From assembly GCF_905475395.1 (NCBI RefSeq), contig NC_058337.1, positions 130,407,960-130,471,959 of the forward strand: a stretch of DNA of 64,000 nucleotides. Direction: 5' to 3'. Under the pieces are notes generated by a model. The model worked only from the letters and a program-made list of their open reading frames with translations, had not been told where the DNA came from and did no database searches. This document shows, in pieces, positions 16,840-50,025 of this stretch. A program made the position numbers and the translations under genes. Position 1 is the first letter of the stretch. Each line of letters begins with the position of its first letter. This stretch comes from Chrysoperla carnea. Taxonomy: Eukaryota > Arthropoda > Insecta > Neuroptera > Chrysopidae.

Positions 16840-18180
16840 ATGAATTCAATAAAATTATTTAATATCATTTTCGAATTGATTTCGATTTTGGCGGTAGTAA
16901 CGGGAAACTTAATTACTTTGGATGGGCAATGTCCATTTTCTCAACTGAAACCTGCAAGCATTGCCATTGTTCCGCTTGTAAGTACATTTTTTTTAAATAT
17001 TTTATTTGAAGAAGTCATATCGATTTTCTTTTTCATGAGAAAAAACTGTCTGAAAAAGTCCCAAAGAAAAACTAAGAAGAGGACTTATGAGAAAAGAACA
17101 CCCGGAAATAAAATCGATTGAACAATAATTCCTGGAGACAAATTTGTGTTTTTTAAAATGAGTTATCACAAACTAATGAAACTGATAAATAAGCAGTACT
17201 TTCTTTATATTTAGTTACGGAGTCTCTTTTCAAGGCATTTTCAGTGTCAGTGATACAAAAGATAATCAACACGATTAGATTCGTCGCCTTGTCGCTTATA
17301 TTCAGTCTGTTTAATTAATTAATGCTTTATTTTTATTCAATAGCTGAAGGGAAAATTCAATGCGATTGCTGAAACATCTATTGGTCCTATAAACCGAACT
17401 GATATAAGTGTGACATTGAAACAAACTGCAATAGATGGAGTTACAATTACAGATAGATTTCGATCAAAAGAAACTGGTCAGTGTAATGAGTTTTATCTAA
17501 ACATCAAAGCTTTCGGCCGGCCTGGAGTCTACGATGCACTTTATCAGGGTAATTAAATAATTTCTCGAAAGTCGCAGTTCTTTTTAAATTTTTTCAACCC
17601 GTCAGCACTCGCGTCTCGTCTCGTCCGGTAATCCTTAGTCGCATGATGAGTGATTTGCTCAAGCGTTCTGCACATGCGTCAATATCATAAATTATTTGAA
17701 AAACAAAAGTTTTTTATGTTTTAAATCGAGCGTGAATAAAATGGTCATAACGCGAGTGCTGATGAGTTAAATATCTAAAACTAATAATTTTGATATTTTT
17801 CTAGTTGCACCCAATACGAACTTTGTTGAATATAAAGCATACTTCTTATCACTTGATCCATTAACTTTAAGGGCTGTTGCAATCATATGCCACGATCTAC
17901 CAAATTATCAATATCAAGGTCAGATAACAAAACGCAATTTTTTAAATTATGAGTTAATCAATGTTATTAATAACTTTAAAAATTATTTTCAGTTGAAATA
18001 GCAGTCTTATCAGCTTTTACAATCGAATACGATAAAGTTACGCAAGCACAAGTTCGAAAATTATTAGAATATAATAATATTGGATATTTAAATCAATATC
18101 TTGTGGAAATTGAACAGAATCATCAATGTGATTTTTCAGCTCCAGAAATTATCGACTCCTTTATACCTTCATTAATCTAG
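16840..18180 (+). CDS. LL1, secreted lipocalin-like protein
   Basis: Four exons (16840-16977, 17344-17548, 17805-17918, 17993-18180) join in frame to 214 aa; the intron phases are 0, 1 and 1. The precursor has a signal peptide of about 22 aa ending VVTG before NLITLDGQCP. The segment LKGKFNAIAET at the start of exon 2 fits the lipocalin G-x-W region with Phe in place of Trp. Four cysteines (C31, C93, C143, C198) could form the two bonds usual in lipocalins, and N63-R-T is a glycosylation sequon. Exon 4 (VEIAVLSAFTIEYDKVTQAQ, then helix, then Cys) matches the end of insect lipocalins in layout. After the last Cys comes an acidic tail, DFSAPEIIDSFIPSLI. The start is fixed by the signal peptide and by homology to the other copies. 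Lipocalins bind small hydrophobic ligands; the ligand here is unknown. It could also be a novel cysteine-rich secreted family. Confidence 0.9.
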
Positions 18181-19125
18181 CCTAGCATTACTAATCATGC
18201 TAGCATTATTGCCTGGTATTTGAAGCATAATGTCCGTTATAGTTAAGTTCATAAAAACCTGATACATACTACTGTGAATAGTGAATCGTTTTGTAGCCAA
18301 ACAATTGAAAAAAAGTATTTTTTTTTAAAACTTTTTCTGTTAAAAACGCCCGATGTTCATTTTATTGATAATTATTTAAATATATTGAAACTAATATAAT
18401 AATCTTTTCTCTTGTATTTATTTGAAAATTATTCATTTAATTATCTTGTTTTTTTGCTAATAATTATAATAAACAATTTTACTATTATTTTTTAATAATT
18501 ATTATTAAAATTTTATGTACTTTTTTGGTCTGGGAGATGCACGGGAAAATCCGTATGACTGCTCGGAGATTTAAACACAAATCAAAAATGTTGCCTTAGA
18601 TAATTTTGCCACAAAAGCTCGTTACCCCAGTCAGGGATAGTCCCAAAACTGAATTCCGAGGAAACTTTTTCGACATTGCATTTCAAAAAATGAACAGGTT
18701 AATATTGATGGATTTTTCTATTTACTATTCGCACCAAATTTTGCCCACACACAACTTCATTCTGTCGTAGAGAGAAAGGTGGATTTACATCCCCAAAGTT
18801 TTCCAAAAGTCATGAATTTAATTACTGTGAAATTTGGTTCAATGTATTTGATTGCGTGTCTGTCTACCTATCTGATGTTGATTGAAAAATCTCCCTGGCA
18901 TTACTTTAATTTAGCGGGGTTTCAATTCCATCTGATTCTCGGTGCAAAACAGCACACTTTACGATATCTTGGCCTGGCTTTAAATTCTCGACGTAGGCGT
19001 CTCACACAAATTTTTTCCCGTTCACCTCCCAGACCAATTGTTATCTTATATTTTACATTTACAAAAGTAGCTTACAATACCCTTTTTGACAAATTTTTGA
19101 CATTAACAATTAATTTTGCAAATAT
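18181..19125. other. Spacer LL1-LL2 with shared upstream segment
   Basis: From about 18340 on, this matches the upstream regions of LL3 and LL4. All share ATAATTATTTAAATAT, a GGGAGATG[CT]-C block and the stretch before the promoter. The open frame running from 18779 into the LL2 signal exon is not a gene: its homologous stretches before LL3 and LL4 are not open. Confidence 0.6.
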
Positions 19126-19150
19126 ACGTCACATTAATTTATGTATAAAA
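19126..19150 (+). promoter_or_regulatory. LL2 core promoter: CRE-like site and TATAAAA
   Basis: TATAAAA lies at 19144-19150, 67 bp before the start codon. ACGTCAC sits at 19126-19132. The spacing and flanking ATTAATTTATGTATAAAA are kept before LL3 and LL4. Confidence 0.65.
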
Positions 19151-19210
19151 AAGAGAAATTTTAGGGTGATAGGACGTAGTTTGCATCATTTCAAAAATAA
19201 CAAAACAAAA

Positions 19211-21626
19211 ATGAATTCAATAAAACTATTTAAAATAATCGTTGAGATTATATCGATTGTAGCTTTAGCAAATGCAAACTTAGTTACGTTAGATGGAGAA
19301 TGTCCATTTTCTGGTATTAAACCTCCAGAAATTGCTGTTGTTCCATTAGTAAGTACTATTTTTAAATATTTTACCTAGCACAAGTGCAATACGATTTTTT
19401 AAACATATTCACATATCTATTTCATTCTGGAAAAATTCTTCATTGAGCCTGATTATTTTGGCTTGGAAAATTTTTTCAGGATCCCGTTTAAAACATGCTC
19501 CTGCACCAAAAAAAGCAGGTTGCGGGTGGGTTTAAACTAGTTTTAAACAAATAAGTGATATTGATCAAATCGCTACAGGAAAAATTTTATCATATAATTG
19601 GAGTCAAAATTAACAAAAAATGTTTAGTCATTTTTCTCTAACCCCCCAAAAACAACCCGGAAAATCACAAAAAAGTTTATCCAATTTTCCCGGGAGCTAC
19701 GTTGTGAAAAATGAAATTTTTCGAAATTTCCTGTTAATTTGACTTTATTTTGAGACAATTGGTGAAAATCCCATCTTTCTAGCATGTATAGAACAGAAAA
19801 TCGTTATTCAGAAAAAGTGAATCGTTACCAAACACTTTTATTAATGGGGAAACATTCAAATCTTGCGTTAATTATGAGACACATTTTTATTTATTTTGTT
19901 GCTCAGATTGAATTATTTTTGTTATAATTTTATTCAATATAGCTTAAAGGAAAATTTAATATAATTGCTGAAACATCCGATGGCCCTTTAAACCGAACTG
20001 ATTTGCAAATGCTGTTGAAACAAACCTCAAAAGATTCAGTCTTACTTACAAAAAGATTTCAATTTCCGGAAAATGAACAATGCTATGATATTAAAATAGA
20101 CATCAAAGCTACAGAACAGAATGGAGTCTATGATGCAATGTATCAAGGTAAGTAATATAATAAATTAATGGAGTTGTGTGGATGTCAGATTGAAGAAGGA
20201 TGTTCTTTAAAAACATCCACATATATCGTATATAAGAGGCTTAAAAACACAGTTATTCCAAAGTTTAAAGTTTTCACTCTGTCAGGCTCCATGGCTGACT
20301 ATCATTTATTGAAGCTCTAAGCTTAACGACATTAGAGATTTTCCCTTTGAATTGGGAGCATACACTTCAATCTAGCAACACTGCATTTAAGACGATTTCT
20401 AAAAAATTTATTACCAATAGTGAAGCTGAAACTGAAAATTATACATTATTTTTCAGTTGCACCTGATACGGAAGCTGTAGGTTACATGGGTTACTTTTTA
20501 GCTTTTGATCTACCCACTCTGTTTGCTGTTGGATTATTATGCCATACCTTACCAGATTCAAAATATCAGTGTAAGGGAACATAAATTTTTTATTTATTTA
20601 TGAATTATTATTGACGAGTAGGTGCATGGTCAAAATTAACGTCAGAAAATTGATGATACAATTTTTTTGCCGGACGCACTGTTTCCTTAAAACATTTAAA
20701 AAAAAAAAATTGTTGCTAAAAAACATCATTTTTAACAATGAAGCCGTGGGTTCAAAATGGTTTTTGTCAGCATCGTGCTTAGTGCAATTTTAAAAATTGG
20801 CAGTACATAGTCGGTGTGGTATTGAAGTCGTGTGAGTACGACTCCTGTAGTCCACACGACTAACTTCCCAGAGGGGAAAAGACTGCCAATTACGTAAAAA
20901 AAGGTCTTGTTAACATTTATAGATTATGTTTCGAACATGTTTTGCAGCTTATGCTTTAACGATCATTATCTCCGTAGATAAATGATGATTTTTCCATTTT
21001 TTTATTACCATTAAAAAACGGCTAAACCAACTCTAAAACAGTTCTTAAATACGTGATTACGCGTCGATTAAGCCCAGTCACGTGTTAATGTCGTTATTGG
21101 TTCGCGAGATAATCGAGACGAAAGAAACCGAACGAACATACCTACGCACATACAAATATACGCACACACGTACACACACACAGGCATCACATTGAAAAGG
21201 CTTGGTTTGGATATTAAAGTCTTGAAACCGTGGAAATATGTAAAACTGGAGGTTTTCAAAATCGGCCCCATTGCATTAACTTCCTCTGGGAAGTTAATAA
21301 ACAAGTAAACAGTAAATAAAATTGGATTATCAATTTATTCGCGTAAAAAAAGTTAACCAGACTGGACTATATAATATAATATTTGAAAAAATTATTTTTT
21401 AGTCGACATTGCAGTATTATCAGGAGCTACAGAGAAATATGATCAAGCTATGCAAGAAAGAGTTCAAAAAGTATTTAAAGATCAAAATATTGAGAATCTA
21501 TATGAATATGTTGTTGAAGTTCCTCAGACCCATAAATGTGCCTTCACTCCACAAGAAATATTCAGTTCTTTAATGCCTTCATCAGATGCTTTAATGCCAA
21601 GCTTCCCAAATTTAAATAGATCCTAA
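19211..21626 (+). CDS. LL2, secreted lipocalin-like protein
   Basis: The exons are 19211-19348, 19943-20147, 20457-20570 and 21403-21626, giving 226 aa. The start MNSIKLFKIIVEI is chosen by alignment with the other copies, although the frame stays open far upstream. Features seen are a signal peptide ending near NAN, then LVTLDGECPF, LKGKFNIIAETS, an NRT sequon, a NEQCYDIKI cysteine, LLCHTLPDSKYQ, and the last Cys in QTHKCAF. The tail after it is about 30 residues long. LL2, LL3 and LL4 share the FP-E-N-[ED]-QCYDIKI version of exon 2, which separates them from LL1 and LL5. Introns 1 and 3 (594 and 832 bp) are long; intron 3 holds a CA-rich tract near 21160. A poly(A) signal AATAAA overlaps the stop codon. 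Confidence 0.9.
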
Positions 21627-23693: not shown

Positions 23694-25154
23694 ATGAGTC
23701 CAATAAAACTATTTAAAATAATCGTCGAGATTTTATCGATTATAGCTCTAGCAAATGGAAACTTAGTTACGTTAGATGGAGAATGTCCATTTGCTCGACT
23801 TAAACCTCCACAAAATGCTGTTATTCCAATTGTAAGTACTTTTTTAACACATTATTTATTTTGCTGCTCAGATTGAATTATTTTGTTGCTTTATTTTTAT
23901 TCAATAGCTTAAAGGAAAATTTAATGTAATTGCTGAAACATCCGATGGCCCTTTAAATCGAACAGATGTACAAATGCTGTTGAAACAATCATCAAAAGAT
24001 TCAATTGTAATGACACAAAGATTTCTATTTCCCGAAAATGATCAATGCTATGATATTAAAATTCAGAGCAAAGCTTTAGAACGGAATGGAGTCTATGATG
24101 TCAAGTATCAGGGTAAGTCATATAAAGCATTATAATAGAGGCGTTATGATAATACCATATTGAAGAGACATTTTCCTTACGAAAAATTTCCATCCAGTAC
24201 TTTCGTAAATTTTCGAAACCCAAATAAATGGTCAATACTTATACAACTCTTTTACTACAAAAAAAAACTACATCTTTGCACGATTTCCTGCAAAACTACT
24301 TTAAGTTTTATGTCGTTTGGCCAGTGCAATCAGTAGTTCAAATAGAATTGCGATAATAGACTTAAGCTAGATCAAAGCGTTATATAAATAGATCGATATA
24401 AGAAAACCATAGAAATTTTTAACAATACTGTTGAAATGAATGAATGAACATGGGACAGAAAGGATGTTTTGTTTAATGTTTAATACATACTTGAAACTTC
24501 GCAAGTGGCTTCCCTTTAGCGAGTCTACGAAATTTCTCTCTTCGACTTTTTTCGAAAATGCTGCGATTTCAACTGAGCATGATAACATCATATTTAAACT
24601 ATCGACCTGGAAAAACGCAACAAGGAATTTTTCACGTTTGCTGAATTGTTTAATAATTATGTTATCAAGTGGTCATAGTGTCCGAAAAATTCCCTTTTTT
24701 AGACTGAAAACGCAGCACTTTCGTTTTCCGCCGTATAATATCTCAATTTGGGGGATTTAGCTCAAACTAGTACCACTGCTTTTCAGATGTTTAAAAAAAA
24801 GTTATTATGAATACATTTGTTTTTTCAGTTGCACCCGATACGTCTCCTGTAGGATTCACAGGTTATTTTATAGCTCTTGATCCATCTACTCTGTTTGGTA
24901 TTGGTTTATTATGTCATAATTTACCAGATTCAAAGTATCATGTCGACATTGCAGTATTATCGGGGCTGACAGACAAATATGATCAAGCTATGCAAGAGAG
25001 AGTTCAAAAAGTATTTAAAGATCAAAATATTCCGGAATTATATGAATATGTGGTTCCTGTTACTCAGAATCATAAATGTGACTTCACACCACAAGAAATA
25101 ATCGATTCTTACATCCCTCCACCAAATGCTTTGAACCCCTTTGAAAAACTTTGA
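23694..25154 (+). CDS. LL3, secreted lipocalin-like protein lacking intron 3
   Basis: There are three exons: 23694-23831, 23908-24112 and 24829-25154, giving 222 aa. The third is exactly the exon 3 plus exon 4 of its neighbours, joined at 24942/24943 without any gained or lost base (SKYHVDIAVLS). The other eleven genes all have an intron there. The remaining layout is normal: a signal peptide, LVTLDGECPFARLKPP, LKGKFNVIAET, an NRT sequon, a DQCYDIKI cysteine, LLCHNLPDSKYH, and the last Cys in QNHKCDF with a tail of about 25 residues. Intron 1 is short (76 bp), as in LL4. A poly(A) signal AATAAA lies about 15 bp past the stop. Confidence 0.9.
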
Positions 25155-25210
25155 AATTAATTGATAATAAATAAATATATTTAATATATTTACAAATGTC
25201 TACAAAGTTA

Positions 25211-26469: not shown

Positions 26470-28541
26470 ATGAATCCAATAAAACTATTTAAAATAATCG
26501 TCGAGATTGTATCGATTATAGCTTTAGCAAATGGAAACTTAGTTACGTTAGATGGAGAATGTCCATTTGCTGGACTTAAACCTCCACAAAATGCTGTTAT
26601 ACCAATTGTAAGTATTTATTTAAGCCCATTTTTTTATTTTGCGGTTCAGATTGAATTATTGTTGCTTTATTTTTATTACATAGCTTAAAGGAAAATATAA
26701 TGTAATTGCTGAAACATCAAGTGGTCCTTTAAACCGAACTGATATACAAATGCTGTTGAAACAATCATCAAAAGATTCAATTGTAATGACTCAAAGATTT
26801 CTATACCCTGAAAATGATCAATGCTATGATATTAAAATTCATAGCAAAGCTTTAGAGCGGATTGGAGTCTTTGATGTCAAGTATCAGGGTAAGTCATATA
26901 AAGCATTATAATAGAGGCGTTATGATGATACCAGATTGAAGGGAAATCTTCCTTAAGAGCATCTAGAAAATATTAATAGAGAACTTGCATTAATTTTATT
27001 TATCAGAAATCTCGGAAACGACTCGGTAGCACTGATTTTCAGATGTTTGCGAATTATTATGAATAAATTTTTTTTTAGTTGCACCTGATACGTCTCCTGT
27101 AGGATTCACAGGTTATTATATAGCTCTTGAACCACGTACTTTGTTTGGTATTGGTTTATTATGTCATAATTTACCAAATTCCAAATATGATGGTAAGAAA
27201 ATATAAACTTTTTATTTATTAATTAAAGAGAATTGAAAAAAATACACTCGAACCAGGACTCGAACCCGGACTTCTTGGATTCATGTCAAGCGCCCTACCA
27301 ATTAGGCTATTCGAGTTCTAGACACGAATGCAATTTTTTCAACTCAATGAATTTTTTTACTTTGTTATCCACTTTATTTATTATTATTACTTATTATTGT
27401 TGTTCACATTTAATTATGCACACAATATTTACATCATGGTCTGTTTGACTAATTTTGATATATAATATGTTACATTCAATCGTAAACTAATTTGACAAAT
27501 TCTTGTCTAGTAATCTTAATTAAAGAGAATCTTAATTCGAGTCCTGGTTCGAGTGTATTTTTTTCAATTCTCTTTAATTAAGATTACTAGACAAGAATTT
27601 GTCAAATTAGTTTACGATTGAATGTAACATATTATATATCAAAATTAGTCAAACAGACCATGATGTAAATATTGTGTGCATAATTAAATGTGAACAACAA
27701 TAATAAGTAATTTTTATTTATTGTTTTACGTCGGAGATTTGATGGTGTAATATTAGTGAACACCACTCATAGTAACCAAAATTTATCAAACCACGCCTCA
27801 TTGTTACAATGTATTTTTAGCTACAAGTTCCTTTTTTTTGCTTTTTTTTCGTATTTTTAACTAAAACGGTATGCCGGACATCTAAAAGTCAGACGACAGA
27901 AACTGAAGATTAGTACCTACGCCGCGTTAACTTGCCACGACCTTTTATCTTTGACCGTTTCCTACTAAACAAAAGGTCGTATATGGAAATATGGTCAAAA
28001 TATTGTGTTTTGCTTTTAGTTATTTGTGTTTTTGTAAGAGTTATTTCACGTATTTTCCAAACGTTTAAAAAATTTTACCATAAGGAATTTGTTAAAAGTC
28101 GAAAAACTTTTTAAAAAAATAAAAGTGGCTAAAACTCATCAATTTTATCAATGAAGCTGTGGCTTTATAAGTTTTTTATTTGATCACTGTGTTCAGCGCA
28201 ATTTTGTCTATGAAAATAATCAATAAAATTGTATAATTAATTTTCTGACCGAAAAAAGTTGATCCAACTGCTATTTTATAATATTTGAAAATTATTTTTT
28301 AGTCGACATTGCAGTCTTATCAGGACTTACAGACAAATATGATCAAGCTATGCAAGAGAGAGTTCAAAAAATATTTAAAGAACAAAATATTCCGCAATTA
28401 TATCAATATATGGTTCCCGTTCCTCAGAATCATAAATGTGACTTCTCTATGGAAGAAATAGTCGATTCTTTCAGACCTTCACCAGATGCTTTACCAGATT
28501 CAACAGATTCTACAGTCCCAGACCTTCCTATTTATTTATAA
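26470..28541 (+). CDS. LL4, secreted lipocalin-like protein
   Basis: The exons are 26470-26607, 26684-26888, 27079-27192 and 28303-28541, giving 231 aa. An in-frame ATG 45 bp upstream (26425) is rejected: it would place METFKVFASAKKK before the signal peptide, and the matching sequence in LL3 is 5' leader. The protein keeps LVTLDGECPFAGLKPP, LKGKYNVIAETS, an NRT sequon, a DQCYDIKI cysteine, LLCHNLPNSKYD and the last Cys in QNHKCDF. Its tail is the longest of the family, about 35 residues, rich in Asp, Ser and Pro. Intron 3 is 1,110 bp and has been invaded by a tRNA-derived SINE and a large hairpin. Poly(A) signals lie at 28550 and 28566. Confidence 0.9.
27245..27316 (-). mobile_element. tRNA-like head of a SINE in LL4 intron 3
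   Basis: Read on the minus strand, 72 bases fold as a cloverleaf. The acceptor stem ACTCGAA pairs perfectly with TTCGAGT. The D arm starts TAGCCTAATTGG (A box) and the T arm has CCGGGTTCGAGTCCTGG (B box). The anticodon stem has an A-C mismatch and position 33 is A rather than U, so a working tRNA is unlikely. Intact pol III boxes followed by an A/T-rich tail fit a tRNA-derived SINE. A 20-base piece of the same 3' end recurs on the + strand at 27536-27555. Confidence 0.7.
27387..27711. repeat. Large inverted repeat in LL4 intron 3
   Basis: The arms 27387-27530 and 27569-27711 are almost perfect inverted copies (about 144 bp, containing GTCAAACAGACCATGATGTA and its complement). They are separated by under 40 bp that holds the tRNA-like 3' end. 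A transcript of LL4 would fold into a long duplex here. It probably arose by an inverted SINE insertion or duplication. Confidence 0.8.
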
Positions 28542-29516: not shown

Positions 29517-30974
29517 ATGAACGCAAAAAGACTGTCTCTTTCCATCGTGCTTATTTCGATCTTAGTAGCTCTGGTAAATGGGAACTTAATAAAGTTGAAC
29601 GGACAATGTCCATTTAATCAACTTAAACCAACACCGATTGCTGTTACTCCACTAGTAAGTAGTTTTTACATAATTTAAATTTTTTATTGATAGAACATGA
29701 ACAGAAAAGATCGTTTTCTTTGGTTAAAGAACATTAAAAGGATAATGAAATTTTTTTAAGACAAGAAAATAATCAAGTAAATTTCGTCTAACTCCAAAAA
29801 GTTTGTTATTGTTCGCCGATTTCTCTGCCTATTGTGAACTGATTTTGGAAAATATTTGTTTGCTTGTTTGTTGTCTTTAACCTCACCTAAATTTTCGCAT
29901 ATCCAAGGGGCATATAGATTTAATTAGCGTAAAATTCCAAAACATAGAAAATTTTCTTTAGGTTTTCTTACAAAATCATTTCCCTAATCCATATTTCAAC
30001 ACTTTTCCACGTGCATTTCATCCCCATGCTTATCATTTACTGATAGCACGATCCTACATCATAGATTTCGTACAATGAACATACCAAAGTTATTTTAGTA
30101 ATACTGAAATTTTTTGATTTTTCGTCTAGATTTAGCTATTTAGTTATGTTTGCATTATTTTGTGTTTCAATAGTTAAAAGGCAGATTTTTTTCGATTGCT
30201 GAAACATCTTTTGGTCCTATAAATCGAACGGATATAAGCGTAACTTTGAAACAAATCGAAGAAGATGCAGTTGCAGTAAAAGGTCGATTTAAAGATATAG
30301 AAACTGAACAATGCGCAGAGTTTAACATTAATCTCAAATCTTTAAGCCAAAATGGAGTCTTTGATGCACAGTATCAAGGTACGTGTTATTAAAAATTTTA
30401 GAAAATTGTCCTAAATTAAGATCAACTCGACAAGTCTTTATTATTTACGACATTGTATCCTAAAAAAAATCATCAATAAAAAAAAGAAAGACTCTGACGT
30501 TTAAGTTTGTAAACAAAATTTAGTAAGCAAACTGAAACATTAATATTCCCTATTCAAACTAATAACTTTTAATTTTTTCTAGTTGCACCCGACACGAACT
30601 TTGTAGGATATAGAGCGTACTTTCTAGCATTAGATCCATTGACCTTACGGGGTGTTGCATTCATATGCCATGACCTACCAAATGGCAAATATCAAGGTTA
30701 GATTTAAGGAATGAATAATTTTTCAATAACATTACAATACCTGTTTAATAATCGAAAATTATTTTTAGTTGAAATTGCAGTTATATCAGCTTTTACAAAA
30801 AATTACGATATAATTACGAAAGCTGAAGTTAAAGAAGTATTAGAATATAATAATATTGGATATTTAAATCAGTATCTTGTTGAAATTGAACAAAATAATC
30901 GCTGTGAATTTTCTGCAGCGGAAGTACTCGATTCCTTTATACCGACATCGAAAGTTTTCTTGCCTGGTGCTTGA
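29517..30974 (+). CDS. LL5, secreted lipocalin-like protein
   Basis: The exons are 29517-29654, 30174-30378, 30583-30696 and 30769-30974, giving 220 aa. The signal peptide starts MNAKRLSLSIVLISI; the mature protein begins near NLIKLNGQCPFNQLKP. Exon 2 has SFGPINRTDISVTLKQ, nearly the LL1 version. Exon 3 has VAPDTNFVGYRAYFLALDP and FICHDLP. Exon 4 has YNNIGYLNQYLVEIEQNN, the last Cys, and the tail EFSAAEVLDSFIPTSK. LL1 and LL5 are thus closest relatives although three other genes lie between them. Intron 3 is only 72 bp. Confidence 0.9.
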
Positions 30975-32534: not shown

Positions 32535-34982
32535 ATGAATTCAAAAAAATTAGCACAACTTTTTGTTGAATTAATTTCGATTGTCGCTGTAACAAATGGA
32601 AACTTTATTACGTTCGACGGAGAGTGTCCATCAGCGGATCTGAAACCATCAATGATAAATGTCCTTCCATTTGTAAGTAATTAATTTTATAAAATTTTCT
32701 AAAATAAAATTCAGCCTTTAACGGTACAAATCAGAGATTTAAAAAAATTTCGGTTCGAGAATACTTCATGTGACTCATCATGGTGTCCTTTTGGCAGCAT
32801 TTGTTTTGGAATTCGAAAGTATTTTTCAGAATTTTTTTTTAGAAAATTTTTCGCAAGACTATTAGTTGAAGCTACTAGTAAATTTTCAATTTTCTGTCTT
32901 TAAAGTTAGGGAGAAAATGGACACCAATTTTTTGCCTTAATTTGTAACTTCACGGGTAACCAGTGATGTTTACGAAAAATGTTTAAAACAAAAGTTGTTA
33001 ATTTTTTTATAAGGAATATTTTTTTACAATTAAAATTTTGTTCTATCTCGAACGGTTTGCCAGATGAGTCCAACGTAGAATATAGAATTCAAACACAGTC
33101 TTTACGTCCCGAGTACGCTATAAAAAATTCAACTCTTTTCGTTTTTACTTTATCTTGTTGCCAGACAGACAGGTAGATGATGTTGTTCGTATCATCAATA
33201 TTTCTAAGCGTTACAAACTTGGGACTTAAATTATTATACCCTCTTTTATATTTCAAACTCGCTACGATAGGCATATCGGATACGAAATTGATGGCAATTG
33301 TATAAAAGATACCATAAATTTATTTTAAATTTCTATAACTTTTTCTATATAGATTACAAACGTCGAGGTTAGTGCAATTGCTTTAACAGCTCCATTGTGT
33401 GGTATAAACCGGACCGACTATAATGCATTTTGGGAACACACCGATTCTGGTACAGCTAAAATTACAAATATTATTCGATCTACAGAAACTGGTGAATGTG
33501 CTACATATTTAGCTTATATTAAAGATATGGATCCTTTAACTGGAGCCTACGATTTACTTTATCAAGGTAATTCGAAATAAATTAGATTCTAGGGATTATA
33601 TCTTACAGTATTATGTAAATTGAATTTCACTCGAAATTCTAGAAGCTGTAGATTCTTATATTTCTTGGTAAGTAGAGCAAAAGTCTTTATGGGGGTGCAA
33701 AATTTTGCCATGATTACAAAAATTTTGAGTGTTAAACAATTTATACAGAGTTATTCACGTTATTCGATACGAAATATTACGGCAAAACTGCTTGATATTA
33801 AGAAAATTTTTCTTCTGTGATAGATGGAGGCTTTACATTTTAAAATTGTTTTCGTAATGTACAAGCTGTGGGAAAATATATAAAGATACTAGCGACTCGC
33901 CCCGGCTTCGCAAGGGTGCAATGCTGATACTAAATACACTACAGAAAAACTGTGAACGTTGTATATAAAAACATAGCGGCCCGCTCTGGCTTCGCACGGG
34001 TATAAAATATATAGCCTATATGATTAAAATCGATCCAGTAGTTTTGATTTATTCATTACTGCCCGTGGCCCGCACGCGTTAAATTTGGAGTAAAACAATC
34101 CCCCTTTCCCTATACCATGAAGATTTCCTGCTTAAAATGTTAAAATTATTTACGACATCACATTAGAAACCTCAAAAATAGCAGTACTTCTCCACTATTT
34201 AATGGATGTTATTATACATATAAACCTTCCTCTTGAACCATTCTATCTATTAAAAAAAACCGCATTAAAATCCGTTGCGTAGTTTCAAAGATTTAAGCAT
34301 ACAAAGGGACATAGGGACAGAGAAAGCGACTTTGTTTTATACTATGTAGTGATTAAGACTTACCTTAGTTACTAAAAATGTAGTAGCAATTTTAACGTAT
34401 ACATTTTCAAAGTCTATTTCCGTTATTCAAACCAAATTCAACTTGGAGTTTACTAATCGAGTGAGTTTTCTGTCGCATTGTGAGTACATATCTTATCACA
34501 GAAAAAAAATTTCTTAAATCAAGCAGTTTAGCCTTATCTTTTGTGTTGAATAATGTGAATAACCTTGTATAATCACAACTCTCGGGTCATTTCATTCGAG
34601 TATTTGAAAAATTATTCTAAAATTAACCCTAAGTTGACTTTTTTTTAGTTGCACCTAACACAAACTTCGCCGGATATAAAGTACACTTTTTATCATTCAA
34701 TCCATCAACGAAGACTGGCTCAGCACTTATTTGTCATAATTTACCAGATTCCCGGTACCAAGGTTAGTTATTTATGAAAATGATTGTAAAAAAATTTTTG
34801 AACAGAAATTAATAATTTACAAAAAAAATTTCTTTTTAGTTGAATTTACTCTATTGTCAGCATCATCATCAGAATACGATAAAGCTGCGCAGGATGAAGT
34901 GAAAACTGTATTAGAAACCAATAATTTAGGATATTTAAATCCATATATTTCTGGGATTGAGCATAGCAACAAATGTTATTAA
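32535..34982 (+). CDS. LL6, secreted lipocalin-like protein
   Basis: The exons are 32535-32672, 33353-33566, 34649-34762 and 34840-34982, giving 202 aa. The signal peptide runs from MNSKKLAQLFVELISI to TNG, followed by NFITFDGECPSADLKP. Exon 2 starts ITNVEVSAIALTAP, so the GKF motif is lost here. It has an extra cysteine directly before the sequon (LCGINRTD), giving five cysteines in the mature protein, an odd number. Exon 3 keeps LICHNLPDSRYQ. Exon 4 keeps VEFTLLSASSSEYDKAAQDE and ends two residues after the last Cys. Intron 2 hosts a Helitron and intron 1 an R1 repeat. This is the first of the short-tailed genes. Confidence 0.88.
32780..33262 (+). repeat. Dispersed repeat family R1, copy 4 (LL6 intron 1)
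   Basis: This copy contains ATTAGTTGAAGCTAC, GAGAAAATGGACACCAA, CAGTGATGTTTACGAAAAAT and GAGTACGCTATAAAAA, and ends near CTCTTTTATATTTCAAA. It is in the same orientation as copies 1, 7 and 8, and shares its left part with copy 8. Confidence 0.7.
33889..34352 (-). mobile_element. Non-autonomous Helitron in LL6 intron 2
   Basis: On the minus strand it starts TCACTACATAGTATAAAACA and ends with a GC hairpin (CCTTGCGAAGCCGGGG) followed by CGAGTCGCTAG and a flanking T; an A precedes the start. These are the TC...hairpin...CTRR ends of Helitrons inserted between A and T. A second copy of the hairpin end (CCCGTGCGAAGCCAGAGCGG) lies internally near 33979, so two 3' termini are arranged in tandem. No coding is present. 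Confidence 0.75.
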
Positions 34983-36272: not shown

Positions 36273-37448
36273 ATGTCATCATTATCGTTTATAAAAATTA
36301 TTGTTGGGCTTATTTTCATTGGTACGGCAGCTAATGGAAACTTAATAACCTTGAAAGGACGTTGTCCATTTGTCAATGTTAAACCATCATTGGTTAATAT
36401 TACTCCTTTCGTAAGTAGTTTCAAAAATTTTATTCATTATTATCTTGTTTTGTACCAACCTAGCTTTTGACTCTAGCAGGGGTGGATGATTTTCAGTCTA
36501 GAAAACACCAAATCAGAAATGTTTGGCTTAAATATTTCATTAATTCAACAGTATTTTGGCAAAAACACTTACTTAGCCAACTAAATCAATGATCAATCCC
36601 GATCCAAGTAGGGGATAGTTGCTCGGACATGCCGTCCCCTTGAAACTTCCTTGGAAATGCGATAGAATAATCCAAAACATGTGTTTGAGCAAAATACTCT
36701 ACAAATTCATCGACTATTTCAATTTATCAATTTTTTTTTTTTTCAAAATATCAAATATTTAAGATTTTAAGAGCCAAAAATATATGTTATGGTTTTTTAA
36801 AATAGTTGAATGGAGTATCCAGTGTGACATTTAATTCAATTGCGGAAACAGCTCCTTTAAGTGGAATAAATCGAACGGATATAACTGTGACTATGGAACA
36901 ACCCATACCAGGTATATTTAAATATACAAAACGATTTCGATCTAAGGAAACCGGCCAATGTGCGGAATTTTTAATTTTTATGAAAGCTGCTAATCAACCC
37001 GGATTTTACGATATGCTGTATCAAGGTTGGTTATCGCATTTCCTTTGTTCTTTTAAGGGATCTATCTTGTTTTTTAGAGAAAAATAATCAATTTTGGATT
37101 GTTTTTCTTTTTAGTTGCACCGAATACGAATTTTGTAAAATATTCCGGATACTTCTTAGCAATTGATCCAAAAAGTATAAAGAGTATTGGAATGGCCTGC
37201 CATAATTTACCGAATTCACAGTATCAAAGTAAGATAGATTAAAACTGATTTAACAAAAAATAATTAAACGTCATTAATATTTCCAAAAAAATATCTATTT
37301 TTTAGTTGAAGTTGCTGTATTGTCAACATCCACGTCAGAATACGATAAAGTTACACAAGAAGAAGTAAAAAACGCACTAGAATTCTATAATTTAGGATAT
37401 TTATATCAATATATTGTCGGAATTGAGAATAATGATAAATGTAAATAA
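36273..37448 (+). pseudogene. LL7, lipocalin-like copy with an apparent frameshift
   Basis: Exon-like blocks at 36273-36410, 36806-37025, 37116-37228 and 37306-37448 are in the usual order with usable GT-AG borders. Exon 1 has a signal peptide and NLITLKGRCPFVNVKP. Exon 2 has LNGVSSVTFNSIAETAP, SGINRTD and a GQC cysteine. Exon 3 is 113 nt instead of the 114 nt found in all other copies. The reading frame is lost after TNFV and soon meets TAG; with one more base near 37140 it would read as a normal exon. Exon 4 is intact and ends NDKCK. This is either a young pseudogene or an assembly error in an A run. No TTAAATA box was found upstream, unlike its neighbours. Confidence 0.7.
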
Positions 37449-38310: not shown

Positions 38311-39320
38311 ATGAATTCATTTAAATTATTCAAAATTTTGGTTGCTTATATTTCAATTGTTGCTGTTGCAAATGGCAACTTAGTTACGCTGGACGGACAA
38401 TGTCCACCTGCCAAACTGAATCCATCTAACTCGATTATTCCAGTGGTATGTATTTTTTTTAAACAATTTTCGATGTATGTTTATTATTTTTAGAAAAGGA
38501 AACATTCAAGGAAATTTGCATTTGTGTCAGTAGTTGAACAGATAAATTTACGTGTTTTTATAGATACCAAAGGCGATATTTACTCAACTTGCTGAAACAG
38601 CTCCAGAGAGTGGTATGAACCGAACTGATGCCGTTACAATTTGGCTGCAACGTCCCGAAGAAATAGAAATCAGAAATGTAGTTCGATCCAAAGAGACGGG
38701 AGATTGTGTTGTATATTCAGCATTTATGAAGGGTCCCGATCCAATGACTGGTGAATTTGATGCACTTTATCAAGGTAAAATCATAGTAGAAGTTGCTGGT
38801 TATACAGCTACTTGACTATTGATGCTATTATAGCAAGTAACTATTTCTTGAATGAACGATCTCAATAGGTACTCAATTCGAGAAAATAAGTTTTTGAATA
38901 CATGCAAAATTTTCTTGAATCAAGAAAGTATATACTTGATACCATGTTAAAAACTGAAACTGAAAAAATCAAAATATTAACTTTTTTTTCAGTTGCACCT
39001 GATACAGGTTTTGTTGGGTATAAAGTACAGTTTTTGTGGTTTGATCCATCATCTCTCACTGGAATTGCACTTGCTTGTCATAATTTATCCGATTCACAAT
39101 ACCAAGGTTAGATAACATTGCTATAGAAAAAATAAACTTTAACTATTTAGTAATAATAATTGATTTTATTATTTTAGCTGAAATTTTTGTATTATCAGCA
39201 ACTCAGACAGAATACAATGAAGTTATGCAAGAAATAGTTAAAGAAGTATTAGAAGAGAATAACATTGAAGTTTTAAATCAATACATGGTTAAAATCGACC
39301 ACGAAAACAAATGCTTTTAA
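38311..39320 (+). CDS. LL8, secreted lipocalin-like protein
   Basis: The exons are 38311-38445, 38564-38774, 38993-39106 and 39178-39320, giving 200 aa in only 1.0 kb, the most compact gene of the array. The signal peptide is followed by NLVTLDGQCPPAKLNP. Exon 2 starts IPKAIFTQLAETAP and has SGMNRTD and SKETGDC. Exon 3 has VAPDTGFVGYKVQFL and ALACHNLSDSQYQ. Exon 4 (AEIFVLSATQTEYNEVMQE) stops one residue after the last Cys. Exon 2 is most like LL6 in ending KDMDP/KGPDP-[LM]-TG, so LL6 and LL8 appear related. Confidence 0.9.
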
Positions 39321-41223: not shown

Positions 41224-42573
41224 ATGAATTCAATAATATTAATAAAATTCATTGTTGTATTTATTTGTATTTTGGCGCTAGTGAAGGGAAACTTAATCAC
41301 ATTGGATGGACAATGTCCATTTGGTGATCTGAAACCTGCACCGGTGATTGCTGCAGCCCTTTTGGATAATGCCACATTTGTAAGTAGCCTATGCTATACT
41401 AACTCTTTGTCAAAATGCTTCCTGCTAAGAACATTTGCTTCGAATCTTCTTAAAGACGTGTTCCTTACGTCGTTAAATTTATTTTCATTTTATGGGAATC
41501 GTTAAAACCCATTTAAGATACAATTTGCCATAAATTATCGTTCAAGTTAGCAGAGAACTCAGTTTTATCTCTGATTTTTTTAATTTCATAGTTAACAAGA
41601 CAGACAAGTTTGGTGTTTCATGCAGTTGCGGAAACAGCGCCTTTGAGTGGAAACAATCTTACTGACATAAGTTCAATTTTGGAACATACTAAATTGCCAG
41701 ATAATCAATTGGGTGGCGTTAAATTTATAATACATTTTCGATCCAAGGAAACTAGCAAATGTGATCAGTATGAAATTATTTTCAAACCTACAATTCAACC
41801 TGGAGTCTATGATCTTCTTTACCAAGGTATAAGTTAACACGTTCAAATCGTCGTCCATTTCATTTCAAACTTTATTTGAAAAGTGAACAAAATATATCTA
41901 AATTAAATCTTCTGTTCTAGTTGCACCGAATGCAGACTTTGTAGACTTCAAAGGATATTTTCTGTCAATAAATCCGCAAACATTGACGGCTATTGGATTT
42001 ATTTGCCGCAATTTACCAAACTCTCAGTATCAATGTAAGAAAATTCAGAATTTAAAGAACTTGGCGTAAATAAAATTGATCGTAAATTTGTTAAAAGTGT
42101 CAATGGGCTCAAAGATCTTATTGTCTGAGTTGAAACATTGGCAATTAAACTCGCCAACGGAAACATATATCTGACGTGAAATTTGTCTGGGGGAGAACGT
42201 ACATTCAAAACTTTTTATTTTATTTTCAAAGGCCTATAAAAAAAACATTCTATAAAACATATCCCATTTCTGTAGACAAGATTCTTTCCCTAAAATTGAC
42301 TACTGTAGGCGTGTATCTATTATTTCCAATGTTTCCAACTTTGGGCCGAAATTAAGAGCGAAAGATTTTTTCGATTTAATTTATGCAGCGTTGTCCATTA
42401 AATTTCTAATAATTAAATTTTTATTTTTAGTTGAGATTGCCGTATTGTCTGGATCAACTATAGAATATAACAGAGGCACCCAAGAAGAAGCTAAACAAAT
42501 ATTAGCCTTCAATAATTTAGGACATTTAGCTCAATATCTTAGTCCAATTGAGCGCAAGACTAATTGTTTGTAA
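41224..42573 (+). CDS. LL9, secreted lipocalin-like protein
   Basis: The exons are 41224-41379, 41592-41826, 41921-42034 and 42431-42573, giving 215 aa. Exon 1 is 18 nt longer than the standard, adding ALLDNATF before the first intron. Exon 2 is 30 nt longer than in LL1. Seen are NLITLDGQCPFGDLKPAP, VFHAVAETAPLSGNN, an N-L-T sequon in place of N-R-T, SKETSKC, FICRNLPNSQYQ and FEIAVLSGSTIEYNRGTQEE; the protein ends NCL. The exon 1 extension and longer exon 2 are shared with LL10, making them sister copies. Confidence 0.9.
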
Positions 42574-43030: not shown

Positions 43031-43198
43031 AAGCAACATAAGCGTACCCAACTTTTTTGTCCAAGGAGAGAGCAAAATCTTGCAACTGAATTTTAAAACA
43101 GATATTTTCAATCGATTGTGCTAAAACCTTGCAAACACGTTTATAGTACAGTTAAAGATGTTCCAAATAAAGGTAAATAAAAGAAACCGCTTGCATAG

Positions 43199-44058: not shown

Positions 44059-44065
44059 TTAAATA
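44059..44065 (+). promoter_or_regulatory. TATA-like box of LL10 (TTAAATA)
   Basis: The context TTTTTGCTTAAATACTAC lies 57 bp before the start codon. Confidence 0.6.
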
Positions 44066-44115
44066 CTACAAATAATTTTTGTAATTTTCATTAAGTTAAC
44101 ATCAAATAAAAAATT

Positions 44116-45633
44116 ATGAATATGAATTCAATAAAATTAATAAAATTCATTGTTGAATTTGTTTGTATTTTGACTCTAGCCAAGGGAAATTTAATTACTA
44201 CATATTCTGGACAATGTCCATTTGGTGATCTAAAACCACCGGGAGTGACTATTTATGAGATTTTGGATAAAATCACAATTGTAAGTTAATTTTCAATTTC
44301 TTATACGAGATAAGTATATTCATCTCCTTTATTTTCGACAGCCAGGTGTGCTAATTCCTTTCAATTCCGTTGCGGAAACAGTTCCTTTGGGTAGTGGTAA
44401 CAATCGTACAAACATTAGATCAATTTTGAAACGTGTTCCATTACCAAATTCTGCATCAGATGCCGTTATTATGATGAAAACTTTTAAATCTAAGGAAACT
44501 GATTTATGTGGTCAATATCAAATTATTTTTTATCCTACATCTCAGCCTGGAGTCTACGATCTTCTTTACCAAGGTAAGCTGATAAATTTTATGACATATC
44601 TAATTGTTATTTTGACCAACAGAAAATATTCTAGAATATAAAGTTGATTGGTAATTTATTATCAATCGAAGAAAAAGACACTTCTGAAAGACAATTTCTC
44701 AACGTTAGCTGCCTTCATAGCTACAACAAGCTAAAATCCAGGAAATTAAAGGCTTGATATCTTGAAGTACAGAGATCTAGAATCCTAATTTAGGTTGTCT
44801 TTCGCCATTTAAAATGAATTAAATATCGAAACAAAAAAAAAGAGGCGTTCAAAAAATCATAACACTTCCCGAAGTCGGGTAGAAATAGAAAATAACTTAA
44901 TACTACGATCCTTCTGTTTTAGTTGCACCGGGAGCAGACTTTGTGAATTATAAAGGATATATTTTATCATATAAACCAGATATTTTCTTGTCTGTCTTGT
45001 TTATCTGCCATAATTTACCAAATTCTGAATATCAATGTAAGTAAACCAAAAGGACCTTATGAAAATCAAATGGTAAAAGCCTTTCAGTTAAAATGCTCTG
45101 AAAAGTACCCGAAATAATTTTTATGAAGAATGATTTAATGTGAAATTTTCTGAAACTTTGGGAAATGTTAGTTTCATGTAAAATATTCAACGGGAAGAAA
45201 ACTTAAAAATTGATAGTTTTCGAGGTATTCGATCAAGAAGGTAAATATTTGAATGTCTCATATCTCTAAGAGATCTAAGACATTCTTTACTTCTTTTTGC
45301 ACAGCGGGACGAAAGTTGAAATTTTCTGCAAGTAGATGAGAAAAAAGGATTTGATCGATTTACTCTCTTACCGAAATCTGACCCCTTTTACGGAATTTTC
45401 AGCTAATACTGACAGAAAGCCTTTTTCCATGTAATTTTTTCATGTGCCATTATAACAAATTGTTATTTTTAGTTGAGATTAGCGTCTTGTCAGCAAATTC
45501 ATTAATATACAACAGTCAAATCCAACAAGAAACAAACAAAGTATTAGAAGAAAATAATTTACAATATTTTGCTCCATATGTTACTGCAATTAACCAACAG
45601 AATGGTCTAGATAAAAATTGTTTATTAGTTTAA
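44116..45633 (+). CDS. LL10, secreted lipocalin-like protein
   Basis: The exons are 44116-44280, 44342-44573, 44923-45036 and 45473-45633, giving 223 aa. A second ATG two codons downstream (44122) gives MNSIKLIKF, the form seen in the relatives, and may be the real start. Intron 1 is only 61 bp. The protein has NLITTYSGQCPFGDLKPP (two extra residues before the Cys), an EILDKITI extension like that of LL9, a SGNNRTN sequon, SKETDLC, FICHNLPNSEYQ and FEISVLSANSLIYNSQIQQE. The end, NGLDKNCLLV, has a few more residues around the last Cys than its neighbours. Confidence 0.9.
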
Positions 45634-46090
45634 AAATGTAATCTTTCCAACGGGAGTATCCATCCGTTGGTAAGAATTTTCTGTGTTTTTTTTAACTCCC
45701 AGTTTTAGTTTATTTAAACTTCCAGTGATGTTTTAAGTTTTACCAATTTTGTACATTGTAAACGAATTATCAATAAAGAAAGTTTTCTTTGTTTTATTTC
45801 CGAAAATTTTTACTGTTTTTACCAATAAGAAACACAAATAATTTTAGTTTTTGATAGAAAATTAGAGAATGTAAAACAATTATTGGACTTTTTTCCATGT
45901 GTAGAGGCGTTTGCTAGGTGTTTACTTAGCCCTCTAGCTAGGAAAAGACCACTACTATTTGGAAAGAAAACACAAGCATAAAATGTTAAGCCTACGTAAG
46001 CCTGTGTTAAATAACTATCGTTAAGCTTTTCCTCTATTTTATGATAGAAATAAAAGTACGTAATAAGACATACGTAATTGAAATTTTTGT
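45634..46090. other. Spacer LL10-LL11
   Basis: No gene is seen. A likely poly(A) signal for LL10 (CAATAAAG) lies near 45772. Confidence 0.5.
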
Positions 46091-46097
46091 TTAAATA
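46091..46097 (+). promoter_or_regulatory. TATA-like box of LL11 (TTAAATA)
   Basis: The context TTTTTGTTTAAATACCATG lies 79 bp before the start codon. Confidence 0.55.
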
Positions 46098-46169
46098 CCA
46101 TGAAATTGATTAGAATAACAGTTAGTAAATTTATTGTGATTTTTTAAAAGTACTCCATAAAACAAAATT

Positions 46170-47765
46170 ATGGCTTCATCAAGATTAGTACACACTATTT
46201 TTGAATTTATAACAATCGTAGCTATAGTAAATGGCAACTTAATAAAGTTTGATGGACAATGTCCATTTGATGATATGAAGCCACTATCAATAGATGCTGC
46301 TGAAATTGTACGTATCAAGTATTTGGATCGTTTTTAACTCAAGAAAAATTTGTATTAATTTTTTCTGAAATTGTTAACCAATAGCTACTTAAAGTAGTGT
46401 TTTGATGCCAGACAACCTGTTTCTCTAGTATTTTAAATGGTTATACAGTGCAATGGAACAAATAACGGGAAGAGAAAGTAAATTTCCCGATATAGACCAG
46501 AAAAGTCTTTCACGTACCATTTCATCGTCACTGATTAACAATTTCAGAAAAAAATAGCGTGTGCATTTCATAAAAAAAATACTCTCGGATTCCTATGGAA
46601 CAAAATTCCATAGTTGTCCGGAAATATATTCCGTTTCCTACTAAATGCAACTATTTTTCGCTAATTTGTTTTTACCCAGTTGGGCGGAGCACCTTTAACA
46701 ATGACGACAATTGCTGAAACAACTCCTTTAAGCGGTGCAAACCGGACCGATACAACTGAAATTTTGGAATTTATAAAGCCTGATATAGTTAAAGTTACAC
46801 TGATTTGTCGATCGAAAGAAACTGGTCAATGTGGTAAATTTTTTCTTCTTATGAGACCTTCGCATCAATCTGGAATATATAAGGGTCTTTACCAAGGTAA
46901 GTATCTAGATTTTGTCTATTCAAACAAAAATTGAATCAACATATCCCATGAAAGGAATAAACTGCATGATTTTTTATTTATTTATGCACTTGTTTTCTAG
47001 TTGCCCCAAAGACAAACTTTGCAAAATTTAAAGCAGCATTTTTATCATTTGATCCCGTAACCATGAAGTCTGTTGGATTAGCATGCCATAATTTACCAAA
47101 TTCCAAATTTCAAAGTAAGTAATTTATTTGTTACATTAGCTGGCAACGTTTTCGGGAGTTTATTTTATGACGGCATATAATTTCGAATATTTCCATTTTT
47201 ATTGAATTTCGGAGTAGAAATGAAATATGAGAATATATATCTGAAACCATTGCATTAAACGCGCTAGATGCGCTTTAGTAAAGAAATCGAATTTCTTTCT
47301 GGCAAATTACAATAAACTTCTCCAATTATAAAATGATAACTTTTATTAAAATTATTAGAACAGCATCTGAAGTGATGTTAGCAACGGCTTTGCCTAGAAA
47401 TTTAACTTATATTGCTAAAGACATGAAAAATTGTCTTAAAATGATTTTGAATTGAACGTTCTAGTAAACGCAAAAAACGTAACCGCTCTCAGGTACCGGA
47501 CGAACTTCTTGCTTTTCTATTTCCAATAAGAAATATCCGAAATCCAGCCGTGTTGAAATCAACTTTTCAATACTATCTTTTGCTAAAATATGATATTTAT
47601 TAAACTTGAAATAATCATTTTGTAGTTGAAATTGTCGTATTGTCAGCATACACATCAGTATACGATGAAGCCACTCAGGAAGAAGTGAATAAAGTATTAA
47701 AATTCAATAACCTTGAATTTGTAATTCCGTATGTTAAAGGAATTGAACAAAATAATGAATGCTAA
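46170..47765 (+). CDS. LL11, secreted lipocalin-like protein
   Basis: The exons are 46170-46307, 46680-46896, 47001-47114 and 47626-47765, giving 202 aa. The first donor is GTACGT. The signal peptide starts MASSRLVHTIFEF and the mature part NLIKFDGQCPFDDMKP. Exon 2 starts LGGAPLTMTTIAETTP with SGANRTD and SKETGQC. Exon 3 has VAPKTNFAKFKAAFLSFDP and LACHNLPNSKFQ. Exon 4 has IEIVVLSAYTSVYDEATQEE and ends with the last Cys as the final residue. The FDGQCPF-x-DMKP, TIAE[TS] and NSKFQ versions are shared with LL12. Confidence 0.9.
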
Positions 47766-48925
47766 CTGTATGATACATTTTGGCATCAGAAAATATCAAT
47801 CATCACTTGTTAATCACCTTTAATGCTCTGTCTAATATAGCCAGTAGTCAATAAGTCTAGAATTTTCGAACTCGAAAAACTGTTTTAGTTAAAGTATTGT
47901 TGGAATCAATTCCTTCCGTTCAAATATTTTTATATAAATACCTATTATATTAAAAGTCATAAATAAACATACACATTTAATTTTATTATGGGCCAATTTA
48001 ATTTTTATAACCTAAAACAAATATAAAGACAAAGGGTATAAAATGTCGGCACGAAGGAACTGTATAGTCTTGGTAAATTTTCTACAGATAACAATTGAGA
48101 TTATACTGCGACCACTACGTCTTTGTAAGTGAAAAACAAAATGAAACCAAATTTTTTTTCAGATAGTCACTCTGGGTAACATTGAACATCTTTTCACCTG
48201 TGTGTCCCTAATTTATAGAAATTAATGACAGGAATTGAGATTTAAGTGAGTTGTAAAGTATATAGATTATGTGAGAATCCGGAGATATAGCCCAAAAAAT
48301 GCCATGGCCCAAAGTTACATATGGATCTTGGGGAATAAATTGTATTTTTTTCGGAAATTAAAATTGTAGGGATGGAAAAATGATGGGCGAACGAATCCAA
48401 TCAAAATTTCATGGAAATTAGAATTTTGGGATTCTTTTTTTTAGTACAATCATAATAGATACATTTTCCTTCAGAAAATTTGCTACGAAGCATAATGAGG
48501 AAAAAATATATTCTTTTTTTATTAATTTATTACTTTTTAACAATATAATATGATATGAAAGCTGACAATGTTTTCGAAAATTTCTTTAATAGCGGCTGAA
48601 TTAGTGAACAGAAAATATCCTATCATTTATCAGATACACAATGACGATATTCGATTGTATTATGTATTCATAAACTGGTGGTTACATCTCTAAAAGACAG
48701 ATTAAGTCTATATATTTTATCGGTATTTTATTTCTGATTTTTAATAAATAAAATGAAATATCGTCATCACAAAGTATATTTCATGCATCACAATTCAAAT
48801 ATTGACTTTAGCTTCAACATAAATACATTAGACCTAGCAAAATCAAATCGACTTGAAATGTCAAGTTCGATTTATGAATATCGGCAAATAGTTTTTAAAA
48901 AAATTATCCATCTAATAAATTTAAC
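47766..48925. other. Spacer LL11-LL12
   Basis: No gene is seen. It lacks a TTAAATA block of the kind found before LL8-LL11; only ATAAATACATTAG near 48820 is comparable. Confidence 0.45.
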
Positions 48926-50025
48926 ATGAATTTAGTAACATTAGTACAAATTATTGTTGCATTTTCAATTGTTGTCACCGTGAATGGAAACTTACTTACG
49001 TTTGATGGACAGTGTCCATTTGCTGATATGAAGCCAGTAAAATACGTTGACAGATTTGTAAGTATTCTATTCATAAAATCATCTAAAGAGTCTATTTCCG
49101 ATTGTCCGTCTGCGAACACGATAACTCAAAAACGAAAAAAGACATCAAGCTGAAATTTTTATAGAGTGCTCCGTACGTAAAAAGTGAGGTCGATGTTCGT
49201 AAATGAGCAACATTGGTCAAGGGCTTATAAGCCGTTAGAGATAGAACAAAAGTTTACATGATAAAATTTCCTTATAAAAAAAATAACTAATTTTGTTTGA
49301 AACAAATTAATTTTTTTTACACAGTTGAGAAAAGCTCCTTTAACAGTGAGAACAATCGCTGAGTCGGCTCCATTAAGTGGTACAAACCGGACCGATGCAA
49401 TCGAGATTTTTCAAAAAGAGCTCGATAACATTATAGTTACACGTATAAGTCGATCGAAAGAAACAGGTCAATGTCACAGATTTTATCTTCTTATGAGACC
49501 TTCTGTTCCTCCTGGAATGTATGGTGCACTTTACCAAGGTAAGCTTTTTTATGTTGCTTGTTTAATGTCAGGCTTGAACAGAGCCTGACTAGTTAAAGAC
49601 TTGTCCATAAATGTGGTAGAGTCTTTGATAAAGAATGAAATATAATCTATTATAATATTTAAACTACACTCGCAAATTGAATTTGTGTTCTAGCTGCGCC
49701 CCATGCAAATTTTGAATACTCCAGATCAGCATTTTTATCATTTGATCCAATAACCATGACTTCTGTTGGATTATCCTGCCGAAATCTACCAAATTCGAAA
49801 TTTCAGAGTAAGATTTCATAAGTTAACACATAGAAAACAATTTTGTTTAGAGTGATGATGAATAGCTTCAATTATTTTTTAGTTGAAGTGGTTGTGTTGT
49901 CAACATTCAAATCAAGATATGATGAAGCAACTCAGGAAGCTGTTAGGAAAATTTTGGAATCGAATAATCTTGGATATATAAATATGGTTAGAATTGAACA
50001 CAATAATAGATGTTTGGTACCATAA
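48926..50025 (+). CDS. LL12, secreted lipocalin-like protein
   Basis: The exons are 48926-49057, 49325-49538, 49694-49807 and 49883-50025, giving 200 aa. It is the last gene of the array. The signal peptide starts MNLVTLVQIIVAF. The rest includes NLLTFDGQCPFADMKP, LRKAPLTVRTIAESAP, SGTNRTD, SKETGQC, AAPHANFEYSRSAFLSFDP, LSCRNLPNSKFQ and VEVVVLSTFKSRYDEATQEA, and the end NNRCLVP. In exon 3 the usual CHN is CRN, as in LL9. Intron 1 consists largely of an R1 repeat (49086-49306). No clear TATA-like box was found. Confidence 0.9.
49086..49306 (-). repeat. Dispersed repeat family R1, copy 6 (LL12 intron 1)
   Basis: TCTATTTCCGATTGTCCGTC, AACACGATAACTCAAAAACG and GTTAGAGATAGAACAAAAGT are all present. 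It fills most of the 267-bp intron, ending just before the acceptor. Confidence 0.7.

Follow-up and report, generated by a model that had tools for sequence, protein, structure and literature searches.

Twelve tandem genes of Chrysoperla carnea encode sequence-disguised proteins with a modelled lipocalin fold

What kind of protein is encoded by twelve related genes that lie in a row on one strand of the Chrysoperla carnea genome? The genes, LL1 to LL12, were found in a stretch of 64,000 nucleotides (nt) (NCBI RefSeq assembly GCF_905475395.1, contig NC_058337.1, positions 130,407,960 to 130,471,959 of the forward strand), which is called the window below. A first-pass annotation had read them as a tandem array of secreted, divergent lipocalins. 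The array proved to be real and intact and not a product of chance, and the fold modelled for two of its proteins supported the assignment as lipocalins. We consider it quite probable that the array consists of twelve outlier lipocalins, that is, secreted proteins with an eight-stranded barrel, a helix, and two disulfides, which sequester or deliver small molecules and whose genes were multiplied by tandem duplication.

Only exons of LL1 and LL2 served as tblastn queries to locate the copies, and the splice sites were set by hand at GT-AG, exon by exon. Twelve gene models, spanning 16840-50025, were obtained (lengths in amino acids, aa):

16840..18180, plus strand, LL1, 214 aa; exons 16840-16977, 17344-17548, 17805-17918, 17993-18180; fold modelled
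19211..21626, plus strand, LL2, 226 aa; exons 19211-19348, 19943-20147, 20457-20570, 21403-21626
23694..25154, plus strand, LL3, 222 aa; exons 23694-23831, 23908-24112, 24829-25154 (exons 3 and 4 fused)
26470..28541, plus strand, LL4, 231 aa; exons 26470-26607, 26684-26888, 27079-27192, 28303-28541
29517..30974, plus strand, LL5, 220 aa; exons 29517-29654, 30174-30378, 30583-30696, 30769-30974
32535..34982, plus strand, LL6, 202 aa; exons 32535-32672, 33353-33566, 34649-34762, 34840-34982
36273..37448, plus strand, LL7, 204 aa; exons 36273-36410, 36806-37025, 37115-37228, 37306-37448
38311..39320, plus strand, LL8, 200 aa; exons 38311-38445, 38564-38774, 38993-39106, 39178-39320; fold modelled
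41224..42573, plus strand, LL9, 215 aa; exons 41224-41379, 41592-41826, 41921-42034, 42431-42573
44122..45633, plus strand, LL10, 221 aa; exons 44122-44280, 44342-44573, 44923-45036, 45473-45633
46170..47765, plus strand, LL11, 202 aa; exons 46170-46307, 46680-46896, 47001-47114, 47626-47765
48926..50025, plus strand, LL12, 200 aa; exons 48926-49057, 49325-49538, 49694-49807, 49883-50025

Since the reading frame was open in all twelve genes (proteins of 200-231 aa), a pseudogene array was rejected. An in-frame GT-AG solution was found for 35 of the 35 introns (61-1110 nt; phases 0, 1, and 1), and the earlier description of twelve copies on one strand was borne out. The exon sizes were 132-159 nt for exon 1, 205-235 nt for exon 2, 114 nt for exon 3 in every copy, and 140-239 nt including the stop for exon 4. 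The conserved exon layout that had been proposed thus held for the intron phases and for exon 3, but four coding exons were present in only 11 of the 12 genes. The exception was LL3, which lacks the third intron: exons 3 and 4 are joined at 24942/24943, the codon that is split by this intron in the neighbours is whole, and the other two introns are kept. Because the loss is so precise, it suggests a recombination with a reverse-transcribed copy. For LL10, an in-frame ATG at 44116 is a candidate alternative start. When a profile of each exon was made from the twelve copies and run over the six frames of the window, twelve copies of each exon were recovered (weakest expectation values, E, for the four exons: 8.8e-22, 5.8e-27, 8.1e-22, and 1.3e-19). 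Nothing else in the window was matched better than E 0.023; therefore, neither a thirteenth copy nor a remnant of an exon can be seen there.

The pairwise identity of the proteins was 34-85%, with 22 invariant columns among the twelve. Their N-termini were all hydrophobic (mean hydropathy of residues 5-21, 1.38 to 2.86), in agreement with the signal peptides first proposed, and the predicted secretion is well supported by this reading. Four cysteines (C31, C93, C143, and C198 in LL1) were present in all twelve, as had been claimed. LL6 and LL11 have one additional cysteine in the mature part, and LL9 and LL10 have one in the signal peptide. Behind the last shared cysteine, 16-33 residues follow in LL1-LL5 and 0-3 in LL6-LL12. 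The segment GKF-x-x-IAET, which had been taken as a sign of lipocalins, was less general than supposed: it is literal in LL1-LL3, reads GKY in LL4 and GRF in LL5, and is reduced in LL6-LL12, which lack GKF, to just IAET or a variant.

Do these proteins have the lipocalin fold? AlphaFold2 models were built with LL1 and the divergent LL8 as queries and six sequences of the window per model; LL4 entered as an alignment row only. In both models, an eight-stranded antiparallel barrel was obtained with a C-terminal helix packed outside, which for LL1 was the check set by the first-pass annotation. In each of four listings of structural comparisons, lipocalins made up 50 of the 50 matches listed, and the closest folds among them were ApoD, sandercyanin, bilin-binding protein, insecticyanin, and crustacyanin. 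The first reading of the LL proteins as lipocalins is thus supported by the modelled fold. In the LL1 model, the introns fall before strand A, at the end of strand E, and in strand H; these positions and the exon lengths may correspond to those of mammalian lipocalin genes.

Judging from its sequence, each LL gene would encode a pre-protein that starts with a signal peptide. Once mature, the protein (about 20-23.5 kDa) would fold into the modelled barrel and helix, probably held by two disulfides, for which C31-C143 and C93-C198 are the most likely pairs. An N-x-T sequon is present at the modelled start of strand B in all twelve proteins and probably carries an N-glycan. After leaving the cell, the protein would most likely sequester or deliver small, mainly hydrophobic molecules in its barrel, as the fold indicates.

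The sequence motifs of kernel lipocalins, on the other hand, are gone. The tryptophan of the strand A motif G-x-W was absent in 12 of 12 proteins (G-K/R-F/Y occurs in LL1-LL5 only), and the only tryptophans of the array, in LL6 and LL8, lie elsewhere. The modelled F-G loop starts with D/N-P in nine proteins and contains TDY in none, so that the proposed loss of both motifs holds throughout. A literal TDY was found in LL6, at strand B. Five of the twelve proteins have T-N-F in the modelled E-F loop, which may be a degenerate TDY should the model strands be shifted. Kernel lipocalins carry an arginine at the end of strand H; the LL proteins have an invariant serine there (S159, 12 of 12) without an adjoining arginine. 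Outlier lipocalins are described as those without the conserved motifs, which are assigned by structure or exon-intron layout (PMC2254393). With the kernel motifs gone in all twelve, the LL proteins are outlier lipocalins, and the array is ordinary in kind, a lipocalin set under strong disguise.

Several results weigh against this assignment. Six window sequences went into each model, many lipocalins were in the training set of AlphaFold2, and the folded queries were two of the twelve proteins. No Pfam lipocalin family was matched by any of the twelve proteins among matches to E 10, which is the escape from standard profile searches that had been foreseen, and no NCBIfam lipocalin was matched by any of them either. 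The matches to PDB profiles were individually insignificant (E 0.7-0.97), and LL1 alone gave no match to these profiles at E<=10. In a comparison of the LL profile with one of eight ApoD sequences, the local score without realignment was 17.5, which was reached by 1 of 30 column shuffles, and the global score was -0.3, below every one of the 30 shuffles; scores of 20.0 and 25.0 were obtained under two other option settings, run without controls. Such marginal or negative outcomes of the sequence-only tests would suit a barrel that AlphaFold2 had wrongly given to an unrelated family of secreted proteins, an explanation that we regard as very improbable.

The Pfam matches that did appear for the twelve proteins belonged to five unrelated families, one LL member each (best, DUF6742 at E 0.048), and were taken as chance; those from NCBIfam belonged to three unrelated bacterial families, again one member each (E 0.071-0.18). 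A search for LL relatives in viral contigs gave six stretches that matched a pattern, none of which was confirmed. No account of this set was found among the listed titles and abstract starts of open-licence papers on lipocalin arrays and on gall-midge and insect lipocalin expansions.

To which known lipocalins are the LL proteins closest? ApoD, sandercyanin, bilin-binding protein, and insecticyanin, among the closest folds listed, have the same eight-stranded barrel and C-terminal helix. ApoD is described as a protein with a signal peptide, N-glycans, and four conserved cysteines, whose gene has four coding exons (PMC8530192); the LL proteins likewise have a signal peptide, four conserved cysteines, four coding exons (11 of 12), and the N-x-T sequon. 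By eye, LL C31 and C143 lie at the positions of the first (N-terminal) and third ApoD cysteines. However, the second ApoD cysteine, in the A-B region, has no LL counterpart, and LL C93 lies at the start of strand D. Moreover, the LL proteins differ from the ApoD group in their low identity (11-16% among the rows listed), in the lack of the G-x-W tryptophan, the F-G TDY, and the strand-H arginine, and in the place of the sequon. A cysteine aligned with C93 was found in alpha-2u-globulin, Equ c 1, Fel d 4, and glycodelin, in five alignments listed at E 0.7-0.97 only. In mammalian urinary and allergen lipocalins, this cysteine is bridged to a C-terminal cysteine, and a pair between the N-terminus and strand G is not known. 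As far as pairing can be deduced from the sequences, the LL cysteines seem to follow a hybrid plan, with an ApoD-like first pair and C93 as in the mammalian proteins.

The mouse Mup and teleost ApoD clusters are vertebrate sets recognised by standard profiles, unlike the LL array. These clusters, too, are reported to be tandem lipocalin expansions (PMC6381713, PMC6325677). Lipocalins without the conserved motifs, like the LL proteins, are found in the tick outliers RaHBP2 and relatives (PMC2254393); intron positions and phases are reported to be kept within the tick outlier group (PMC3695081), and tick lipocalins to form large multiplied secreted sets (PMC5622192). In the arthropod lipocalins listed in PMC2254393, the C-terminus is bridged to strand B, whereas the predicted LL partner cysteine lies on strand D.

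The next question is where the copies differ. Mouth and bottom loops were assigned by the general lipocalin topology. With two flanking residues included, the mean entropy was 0.97 bits in the mouth loops versus 1.78 bits in the bottom loops, and the invariant positions numbered 9 versus 1; this contrast was reached by 1 of 110 circular shifts, and with three flanking residues also by 1 of 110. The most variable strands were C and D (2.0 and 1.9 bits). In lipocalins, the family motifs usually lie near the closed end; conservation of these motifs there was not seen in the LL array. Divergence of the copies would thus have affected the barrel wall (strands B-D) and the loops at the closed end, with the mouth loops remaining similar; the copies therefore probably differ in cargo and may share one mouth-side interaction. 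The loops taken without flanking residues speak against this, as the contrast was then reached by 16 of 110 shifts.

The conserved mouth also lends itself to another explanation, in which the lipocalin fold is a scaffold only and the mouth loops attach to a partner, either a protein or a surface (e.g., as glycoprotein ligands, inhibitors, or coat components) with no small-molecule carriage. The entropy contrast with its invariant positions and the invariant sequon are in line with such a scaffold, but the contrast is less clear for the loops alone, and the wall strands C and D are also variable, as cargo diversification predicts; we consider it unlikely. It is similarly doubtful that the array represents an unrecorded lipocalin subfamily with hybrid disulfides (the first of ApoD type, the second of mammalian urinary type) and reversed conservation, in which the mouth with its invariant residues and sequon would be a shared surface, the wall and bottom would vary, and the proteins would be carriers with different cargo and one docking partner.

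How did the array arise? The protein tree groups the adjacent copies LL2-LL3-LL4, LL9-LL10, and LL11-LL12, whereas LL6 is paired with LL8, on the far side of LL7. Because the nearest relatives are neighbours or near-neighbours, the gene would have been multiplied by tandem duplication, probably through unequal crossing-over. The stretches upstream of LL3 and LL4 are common to both (77-91% identity), so the promoter region belongs to the unit that was duplicated. Between copies, synonymous divergence ranges from 0.19 (LL3-LL4) to about 1.3, which indicates growth over a long time.

The ratio of nonsynonymous to synonymous divergence (dN/dS) was calculated pairwise over whole genes, and a saturation cut at a proportion of synonymous differences (pS) of 0.62 dropped 2 of the 66 pairs. 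In all 64 remaining pairs, dN/dS was below 1 (0.29-0.71), and no whole-gene positive selection was seen in them. Taken over whole genes, the LL copies are therefore evolving under constraint, with net purifying selection and no runaway change. In gall-midge salivary genes, a conserved signal is reported to precede a fast-changing mature part (PMC2955719). No consistent pattern of this kind was found in the six LL pairs tried, since dN was lower in the signal than in the mature part in four pairs and higher in two; the signal-peptide dN/dS of LL2-LL4 was 1.15, on 23 columns.

These results bear on what the carriers may serve. If the LL proteins acted in saliva or venom as effectors that enter a host to mop up its signalling molecules after injection, like tick and triatomine lipocalins, a whole-gene dN/dS that never exceeds 1 in the 64 pairs would be hard to accommodate, as would top matches to ApoD, sandercyanin, and crustacyanin, which are not salivary forms; this role appears improbable. 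Carriage of odorants, pigments, or lipids for the insect's own use (in the antenna, cuticle, haemolymph, or reproductive tract) is a good possibility, if somewhat short of an even chance. It accords with the net purifying selection and with nearest folds that are lipid and pigment carriers, although fold kinship does not indicate the ligand.

A TATA-like box was noted before most of the genes, with the following instance at LL1:

16755..16762, plus strand, TATA-like GTTAAATA, 85 nt upstream of the LL1 start

[CGT]TTAAATA or TATAAAA[AG] is located 59-85 nt upstream of the start codon in 10 of the 12 genes (not LL7 and LL12) and in 5-7% of random stretches, a comparison that is only descriptive because the motif was written after the twelve upstream stretches had been read. 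Mature LL7 and LL12 are basic (isoelectric points 8.3 and 9.1), the other ten being acidic (4.4-5.7); the two basic copies are the same two without the box.

The G+C content is low, about 0.3. Other features were observed within and around the array:

11078-13153, plus strand, upstream: open frames rich in serine and arginine, apparently the exons of a single gene; three of the frames were tried and matched no Pfam family at E 0.1
27245-27316, minus strand, LL4 intron 3: tRNA-like sequence of 72 nt (ARAGORN tRNA-Ser TGA; Rfam tRNA, 53.6 bits), short for a tRNA-Ser, which may be a tRNA-derived mobile element
27386-27711, close to the tRNA-like sequence in LL4 intron 3: perfect inverted repeat of 145 nt
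50310-50804, just past the array: inverted repeat with 199-nt arms, 99% complementary and 97 nt apart, which looks like a foldback element
50865-51233, minus strand: helicase-like fragment (Pfam UvrD_C_2, E 0.011, below the cut-off), presumably akin to a Helitron or PIF1 helicase
52520 to about 53125, plus strand, downstream: animal-type gene resembling TMEM234, with three or more exons (E 4.4e-41 to Pfam TMEM234 for 148 residues assembled by eye)
55900-58690: what look by eye like nested mobile elements, with open frames between repeat-like stretches near 55900-56080 and 58090-58290
58285-58686, minus strand: what may be a hAT transposase remnant, apparently enclosing the nested elements
about 58400-58490: long TA microsatellite

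Lipocalin arrays are often taken as ecological interfaces (saliva, scent, and pigment). The LL genes indicate that a whole array of twelve can escape naming by Pfam (0 of 12), though the fold is plain once it is modelled, and the number of such arrays may be underestimated where genome annotation uses sequence alone. Since the mouth is alike in the twelve paralogues but the wall is not, the array is a natural set for testing the function of the lipocalin mouth.

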